Source of the DNA: Prochlorococcus marinus XMU1419
GTDB lineage: Bacteria > Cyanobacteriota > Cyanobacteriia > PCC-6307 > Cyanobiaceae
Direction of reading: 5' to 3'
Assembly (NCBI RefSeq): GCF_017695955.1
Contig: NZ_JAAORO010000002.1
Location: forward strand, 310,001 to 374,000
Length of the DNA stretch: 64,000 bases
Shown here piece after piece: positions 22,967 through 51,232 of the stretch. The notes below the pieces were generated by a model. The model ran no database searches. It was not told where the DNA came from and saw only the letters and a program-made list of their open reading frames with translations. Position 1 is the first letter of the stretch; the number at the start of each line of letters is the position of its first letter. The position numbers and the translations under genes are program-made.

Positions 22967-23362
22967 TTACTTTTTATCTTCAAACATTTTCGATTTTAGT
23001 AAATCAACTCTTTTTTGATTCACTCCCAAATCACTTTCTCCAACTCTTGATTCTGATCTTATTGATAAGATGTTTGATTCAGGTAGAAAGGATACTTCTA
23101 AGTCGTCTACATACTTCATCCATTTACTGGTTGCCTCAGCATGAAGATAATCGCCATCGATTTCTACAATCTCAGTTCTTGGAGTGTTTTTGATAAATGT
23201 TTTAATCTCTTCAAAAGGTTTCTCAATATTGTTTACCTCCCATTCTTCTCTTACACAATGAGCAATCTCTACACAAGGTTTTAGTTCTATATGAGAGGCA
23301 AATGATGAAGAAGGGAATAAAAAGCTTGAACAAATTAAAATTGCTATAAAAAGTATTTGCAT
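22967..23362 (-). CDS. DUF1499-family exported protein
   Basis: A signal peptide (QILFIAILICSSFLFPSSSFA) is followed by the DUF1499 domain. Typical elements are ELKPCVEIAHCVREEW, then VEIDGDYLHAEATSKWMKYVDDLEVSFLPES and the closing RSESRVGESDLGVNQKRVDLL. Two cysteines in the N-terminal part may form a disulfide. Periplasmic or lumenal location is likely; function unknown. ATG start, normal length (131). Confidence 0.88.
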   Translation of the reverse strand: MQILFIAILICSSFLFPSSSFASHIELKPCVEIAHCVREEWEVNNIEKPFEEIKTFIKNTPRTEIVEIDGDYLHAEATSKWMKYVDDLEVSFLPESNILSIRSESRVGESDLGVNQKRVDLLKSKMFEDKK

Positions 23363-23493
23363 TAACAGATGAATTTAATGACTTATAATCTAACGAATTT
23401 AATTATTAATTTGTAATGAGGACCTAATTATTTTGGAAGAAAGCATATGTGTTTTTATATTCAGAATTTATTATGTATTTCTAATAATTCACA

Positions 23494-23588
23494 AAAAAAA
23501 AGATCCCTCGAAGAGAGATCTTTTAAAAATTAATTTATATCAAGTGTTTCCTTGTTTCCACTGAAATAAATTAATTCCTCCTACACAC
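23494..23588 (-). ncRNA. Yfr2-family-like small RNA
   Basis: On the minus strand an 11-bp stem (AATTAATTTAT / ATAAATTAATT) and an inner stem close a loop reading GAAACAAGGAAA, the doubled GGAAACA signature of the cyanobacterial Yfr2-5 RNAs. A second hairpin (AAGATCTCTC / GAGGGATCTT, one mismatch) followed by nine T ends the transcript. GATATT at 23595-23600 is a suitable -10 box. The expected length of about 95 nt fits the family. The 5' end GTGTGTAGGAGG nearly complements the Yfr1 core. Confidence 0.7.
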
Positions 23589-23659
23589 AACTTTAATATC
23601 ACACCCAAATTCAAATTATGTAATGCTTTGTAGGCCTCTATCTTAACTGTCACATGGCA

Positions 23660-23768
23660 AAAATACAAAAAGTACTCAAACATGGAGGTCGAGTACTTTT
23701 AAAGTTATCAGAAAAAAGTGTGTGAGGAGTTTCTGATGTGTTTAATCTACTCCGTAGGTAATTTAAAA
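23660..23768 (-). ncRNA. Candidate small RNA with Yfr1 core in a hairpin loop
   Basis: On the minus strand an 8-bp stem (ATCAGAAA / TTTCTGAT) closes a 15-nt loop; core 23717-23730 (ACTCCTCACACACT), including one stem base, is identical over 14 nt to Yfr1 in this window. A perfect 10-bp hairpin (AAAAGTACTC / GAGTACTTTT) follows, then T-rich sequence. TATACT at 23775-23780 could be the -10 box. Yfr1 normally holds this core single-stranded between two hairpins, so this is a different presentation. Read on the plus strand, the loop would instead complement Yfr1. Confidence 0.5.
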
Positions 23769-23858
23769 GGCTACAGTATAAATTACTAATTATTTAAATC
23801 TTTCAGAAAAATTGGGCATTTGTGAAAAGAATAATCAAAACAAAAACATAAAAAATTT

Positions 23859-23993
23859 ATGAAAAGCATTTACAAAAAAATCATTTTTATTATTTTAGCA
23901 ATTGCTCTTTTTTCAGTAATAGTGGGTGTTGTTAAATATTCGCTTACTTATATTGAAAATAATCCCGAAAAATACTTACCTACACAAAAGTAA
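23859..23993 (+). CDS. Micro-membrane protein, 44 aa
   Basis: ATG start; a basic N-terminus (MKSIYKK), one transmembrane helix (IIFIILAIALFSVIVGVVKY) and a soluble tail ENNPEKYLPTQK. It could be a signal anchor with the tail exported. No family is recognised. Confidence 0.5.
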   Translation: MKSIYKKIIFIILAIALFSVIVGVVKYSLTYIENNPEKYLPTQK

Positions 23994-51173: not shown

Positions 51174-51232
51174 AAAAAAGCCCGAATAATCGGGCGATTT
51201 AGTGTGTGAGGAGTATGGGGTTGCCCCCATCA
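51174..51232 (-). ncRNA. yfr1: Yfr1 regulatory RNA
   Basis: On the minus strand a 5' hairpin (ATGGGGGCAACCCCAT), the unpaired core ACTCCTCACACACTA (51201-51214), and a terminator GCCCGA / TCGGGC followed by six T. This is the two-hairpin plan of Yfr1. The position between guaB and trxA is the known locus in marine Prochlorococcus and Synechococcus. Yfr1 pairs through its core with target mRNAs, including outer-membrane protein messages. About 59 nt. Confidence 0.93.

Follow-up and report, generated by a model that had tools for sequence, protein, structure and literature searches.

A tandem of Yfr10-family and Yfr2-family RNA genes in Prochlorococcus marinus XMU1419

The window, the 64,000-nucleotide stretch of Prochlorococcus marinus XMU1419 that was analysed (C2:310001-374000 of the 1.64 Mb genome), carries two small RNA genes in gene-free DNA and, further along, a gene for Yfr1. 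The candidate open reading frames that flank the pair end at 23362 and start at 23859, and none taken for a gene covers the RNAs; two small frames that overlap them (23433-23564 and 23540-23683) were judged spurious. The features under discussion are the following, where mean identity is to the window among 53 aligned sequences and compares with 90.1% over the aligned region as a whole:

51177..51230, minus strand: Yfr1 RNA, a second possible partner (Rfam RF01116, 57.5 bits against a gathering score of 38)
23775..23780, minus strand: TATACT, likely -10 box of the upstream RNA (99.4% mean identity)
23717..23730, minus strand: Yfr1-type core ACTCCTCACACACT, an exact match to 51201-51214
23707..23737, minus strand: hairpin displaying the core (-4.7 kcal/mol)
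23652..23737, minus strand: Yfr10-family RNA, orthologue of MED4 Yfr18 by synteny (Rfam RF02362, 59 bits against a gathering score of 43)
23669..23701, minus strand: second hairpin of the upstream RNA, resembling a terminator but with its U tract interrupted, seen in the fold and not called by the terminator scan
23643..23654, minus strand: TGTGACAGTTAA box, candidate regulator site before the Yfr2-type gene (98.4% mean identity)
23593..23600, minus strand: GATATTAA, possible -10 region of the Yfr2-type RNA, weak (91.5% mean identity)
23577..23588, minus strand: anti-core GTGTGTAGGAGG, complementary to the core apart from one bulged C (predicted duplex -16.9 kcal/mol)
23523-23590, minus strand: Cyano-1 (Yfr2 family) RNA (Rfam RF01701, 77.9 bits against a gathering score of 41)
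23494..23588, minus strand: Yfr2-family RNA including its terminator, orthologue of MED4 Yfr5 (Rfam match; fold z -4.9)
23498..23524, minus strand: intrinsic terminator of the Yfr2-type RNA, a 12-pair stem with a T tail (shuffles mean 0.0)

Both small RNAs thus match known Rfam families above the gathering scores, one as Cyano-1 and the other as Yfr10. A preliminary description of the locus had already recognized two minus-strand RNAs in gene-free DNA, one of them of the Yfr2 type, and this holds; it had also called the two RNAs facing, which is wrong, as both are read from the minus strand in tandem, the Yfr10-type start lying 147 nt from the Yfr2-type start. The upstream RNA had been proposed as a Yfr1 paralogue with a different structure. 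The structural half of that proposal stands, with the core in a loop and in agreement with work on MED4, while the new paralogue was rejected because the RNA scores as Yfr10 and there is no Yfr1 match at that place. The 14-nt core is identical in Yfr1 (RF01116) and the upstream RNA, but in Yfr1 it is single-stranded between two hairpins, whereas in the upstream RNA it lies in a loop. The Yfr1 family is also defined by a position between guaB and trxA. The 23652-23737 RNA has the marks of Yfr10, namely a stem whose loop shows the Yfr1 core and a Yfr2 homologue downstream.

The exact repetition of the 14-nt core at 23717-23730 and 51201-51214, both on the minus strand, is as first described, and no further place in the window matches it at up to two mismatches. 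Shuffled windows hold 0.09 core matches on average (at least 2 in 0 of 100), and the first 11 nt of the core occur twice in the whole genome, as against 0 for a reversed control. According to structure prediction, the upstream RNA forms an 8-pair stem capped by a loop that contains the core, followed by a second hairpin, and when each of the two RNAs was folded by itself its structure was better than those of all 200 shuffles (z -5.1 for the upstream RNA and -4.9 for the Yfr2-type RNA). Taken alone, the 31-nt core hairpin scores less well (z -2.6), being matched by 4 of 200 shuffles. In the single upstream RNA the core has a mean predicted probability of being unpaired of 0.94, so that for the RNAs taken singly the fold does not bury the core; a buried core would have spoken against the original description.

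The expectation that each RNA would have its own -10 box and terminator was borne out unevenly. Since a consensus scan called no promoter on the minus strand, the -10 boxes were assigned by conservation: TATACT upstream of the Yfr10-type RNA is strongly conserved, and the box of the downstream RNA barely so. The TATACT at 23780-23775 would likely set the start of transcription near 23770, close to the position of 23768 given before. A terminator scan made a call in the Yfr2-type RNA only (23524-23498); in the upstream RNA, the second hairpin was not called, its U tract is interrupted, and it is possibly leaky.

The doubled loop GTGGAAACAAGGAAACAC of the Yfr2-type RNA is present as described, both in the sequence and in the Rfam match, and the predicted fold of this RNA consists of a free 9-nt 5' end, a long stem with the doubled GGAAACA in its loop, and a strong terminator; the free 5' end and the doubled loop are those of Cyano-1. 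The anti-core GTGTGTAGGAGG starts at 23588 on the minus strand, at the 5' end of the RNA, and the early remark that this end nearly complements the core, with one bulge, agrees both with the predicted duplex and with the same bulged pairing in the literature (PMC2518516). A box of the form TGTGACA[AG]TTAA, allowing up to two mismatches, lies at -66 (49 copies) or -65 (2 copies) from GTGTGT in 51 of 52 Yfr2-type copies. The box is also found in three of the four MED4 copies, at -65 to -67, and in the lone Yfr2-type copy of this genome, at -68. A GntR regulator (PMM1637 in MED4) has been reported to control two Yfr2 homologues (PMC6778093), and the box may be its putative site. The lone copy, the second Yfr2-type RNA of XMU1419 (L216; G000:C1:41800-43800), is without an upstream core, the best match within 2 kb having 3 mismatches.

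The layout recurs in other Prochlorococcus genomes. Among 151 genomes of the genus, many of them incomplete, matches at E <= 0.001 under stricter filters were found to Yfr10 in 123, to Cyano-1 in 131, and to Yfr1 in 118. Among the matches listed, 59 of 60 Yfr10 places have a Cyano-1 match on the same strand 141-171 nt downstream (start to start) and 1 of the 60 has none; the 60 places come from 40 of 120 sampled genomes of the order, and 6 of them score below the Yfr10 cut-off. In a second collection, 52 Yfr2-type copies were drawn from the 54 top-scoring loci without asking for the core, a selection that is not a random sample. The 13-nt core lies upstream of these copies exactly in 48, with one mismatch in 2, and with two mismatches in 2, so that the core is conserved at this place in relatives; the 11-nt start of the anti-core, which was not required in the selection, is exact in 52 of 52.

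Among the 53 aligned sequences, which include the window and were chosen without requiring the core, mean identity to the window is 98.9% for the core as compared with 90.1% over the aligned region as a whole, while the spacer at 23642-23601 falls to 80.4%. The corresponding figures for the anti-core (99.2%) and the GGAAACA loop (100%) are not independent, both having been required in the selection. Loci chosen instead by the Yfr10 model give a less uniform result. The core is exact in 25 of the 26 that were read (of 30; L022, L025, L029, and L033 lack the search string), and the downstream GTGTGTAGGAG is matched perfectly in 7, with a single mismatch in 13, and with at least two in 6. Ten of the 13 one-mismatch anti-cores read GTGTGAAGGAG, a change that further opens the duplex in its middle. 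Some pairs therefore depart from strict pairing. In one assembly, of Prochlorococcus HNLC1 (L131), a stretch of about 1 kb holds two tandem pairs.

The tandem of XMU1419 is the orthologue of Yfr18-Yfr5 in MED4. For this comparison, genome G015 was taken as MED4, since its Yfr10 match at 346661-346738 is the published position of Yfr10 (PMC2518516). It contains a Yfr10-family match at 972321-972241 followed by a Cyano-1 match at 972178-972111, both on the minus strand. The 12 kb around the locus are collinear with MED4 (blastn matches of 67-79% identity), and the distance from the Yfr10-type RNA to yfr1, on the same strand, is 28.5 kb in MED4 and 27.5 kb here; the assignment rests on this collinearity together with the similar distance and strand. 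Across 23 of the 118 Yfr1 places, a Yfr10 match lies 24.6 to 34.1 kb from yfr1 on the same contig, strand, and direction in 21 genomes. The two loci share a core hairpin and a Yfr2-type RNA, whereas the sequence outside the motifs has diverged. The RNA ends given here are predicted from the sequence, and the published span of MED4 Yfr18, complement(972284..972388), coincides only in part with the Rfam match at 972241-972321 (PMC2518516). Orthology to MED4 Yfr10-Yfr2, the members of which were used in the published tests, was rejected on synteny; that pair has the same families in the same order but lies at a different locus, in genomic island 1, with 165 nt from start to start as opposed to 147.

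The bulge is general within the genus. The search pattern permitted the extra base, yet it is missing from all 119 tandem matches in the 118 loci of the named collection, and a tandem with the full complement was found in none of the 151 genomes. For the Yfr2-type RNA alone, the form with the additional G occurs in 0 of the 151 genomes and the bulged form without it in 99. In other genera, by contrast, the G is kept in all 20 Yfr2-type copies fetched, which represent 12 genera of the family; as judged by eye, GTGAGG opens the 5' end in all 20 and GTGAGGA in 18. A script counted GTGAGGA in 19, but in L253 the string lies further in and not at the 5' end. From the 0 of 151 in the genus against the 20 of 20 outside it, the G seems to have been lost in the line leading to Prochlorococcus. 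The bulge was also considered as a mark of tandem as opposed to lone Yfr2 copies and rejected, because the lone copy of this genome and 4 of 4 MED4 copies lack the G.

Tandems of Yfr10 and Cyano-1 also occur in another genus of the family (G152, G222, and G238), with Yfr10 scores below the cut-off. Thirty of 42 core sites outside the genus, from 16 genomes, were read, and in four of these loci (two in G222, one in G227, and one in G216) a Yfr2-type loop is found downstream of the core. By a crude rule 8 of the 30 sites are Yfr1-like; at the other 22 the core lies in a loop in 14, as compared with 214 of 2200 controls in which the flanks were shuffled. However, loops were also obtained for 5 of the 8 Yfr1-like sites, so this test separates the families poorly. 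Read on the antisense strand, a Yfr2 5' end that is unbulged gives a perfect Yfr1 core, as in L291 and, by its coordinates, at G178:C1:935999-936009, and because of this, simple core searches can give false Yfr10 calls.

Much of what can be said about the action of the pair comes from MED4, where Yfr10, Yfr12, and Yfr18 adjoin Yfr2, Yfr4, and Yfr5 with the core exposed, and where 5'-GUGUGUAGGAG and the core form a duplex with a single bulged C (Steglich 2008, PMC2518516). In high-light strains, Yfr2 homologues have Yfr10 homologues upstream of them (PMC6778093). Yfr1/Yfr10 and Yfr2-type RNAs co-purify in pull-downs made in both directions (Lambrecht 2019, PMC6778093); with Yfr10 as bait, Yfr3-5 are clearly enriched and Yfr2 itself only slightly (PMC6778093). 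Yfr2 relieves repression by Yfr1 in E. coli, a reporter test that was made with Yfr1 and not Yfr10, and RNase E cleavage of Yfr2 is lost when Yfr1 or Yfr10 is bound (PMC6778093). For the RNAs of XMU1419, the predicted interaction energy of the Yfr2-type RNA is -10.0 kcal/mol with its Yfr10-type neighbour and -15.4 kcal/mol with Yfr1, values reached by 6 and 9, respectively, of 400 controls with the first 13 nt of Yfr2 in shuffled order. When internal structure is left out of account, the duplex scores are no better than those of shuffles: 472 of 500 shuffles reach the score for Yfr10-Yfr2, and 150 of 500 that for Yfr1-Yfr2. The suggestion that the Yfr2-type RNA could bind Yfr1 or its core-bearing neighbour, as a sponge or in cross-talk, is in agreement with the MED4 work (PMC2518516, PMC6778093).

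The identity, layout, and conservation of the tandem are plain from the comparisons above; the interaction of its RNAs is in print for MED4 Yfr1/Yfr10 with Yfr2, and by analogy would extend to XMU1419. Very probably, then, the locus is a tandem of known Yfr10-family and Yfr2-family genes in which the Yfr2-type RNA titrates the core of its neighbour or of Yfr1. In such a scheme, the Yfr10-type RNA would show its core in the hairpin loop and bind mRNAs with it, the single-stranded 5' end of the Yfr2-type RNA would bind the same core in the neighbour or in Yfr1 and so titrate these RNAs, and the pairing would in turn shield Yfr2 from RNase E. Both RNAs may also be made here as one precursor.

Such a precursor gives rise to a reading in cis, in which a single read-through transcript folds on itself and locks both motifs until it is processed, limiting itself and fixing the ratio of the two RNAs. 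In a predicted 23737-23494 transcript, the chance that the core is unpaired drops from 0.94 to 0.11 as it pairs with the anti-core, so that the core, exposed in the single RNAs, would be buried in the joint one. Of 106 distinct tandem precursors, 104 are predicted to have over half of the core paired with the anti-core, but these loci were picked for exact motifs, and their self-pairing follows from that choice, with no independent control. The upstream RNA has no consensus terminator, and MED4 makes a 270-nt Yfr10-Yfr2 precursor (PMC2518516), although no joint precursor is named for Yfr18-Yfr5 in the available text of that report. As the core hairpin would form first during transcription and a conserved box of its own precedes the Yfr2-type gene, action of this kind seems rather unlikely, even if core/anti-core pairing in a joint transcript would make a self-limiting unit. 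An extension of it is unlikely: that the joint RNA closes by core and anti-core, neutralising itself, and that the bulge left in the genus by the lost G lets the RNAs release, related genera being unbulged.

The two RNAs might instead act independently on mRNAs, being neighbours by descent through duplication or transfer, with their complementarity a by-product of selection for their own targets. In MED4, 206 mRNAs were enriched with Yfr1 and 253 with Yfr10 (PMC6778093). This genome has its Yfr2-type copy without an upstream core, one Yfr10 place is without a partner among the matches listed, and the anti-core is inexact in 19 of the 26 Yfr10-model loci. Yet the reporter and RNase E data show that the RNAs affect each other (PMC6778093), tight spacing is kept at 59 of 60 places among the matches listed, and tandems are found outside the genus too, all of which makes independent action very unlikely.

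The observation is confirmed as real but already described. Both RNAs belong to known families, and it is not new because these families had been described and experiments published in 2019 had demonstrated their cross-talk in a related strain. The ideas of the preliminary description are themselves in print, namely a second, loop-displayed core beside a Yfr2-type RNA and its bulged-C pairing (PMC2518516), and cross-talk (PMC6778093). A published regulatory pair of two RNAs, with its bulged pairing, was thus recovered by reading nothing but the raw sequence. The modest additions, of interest to specialists, are the assignment of the pair to Yfr18-Yfr5 and the tandems in other genera of the family, as well as a bulge that is general in the genus and absent from the other-genus copies read, and a box at fixed distance before the Yfr2-type genes.
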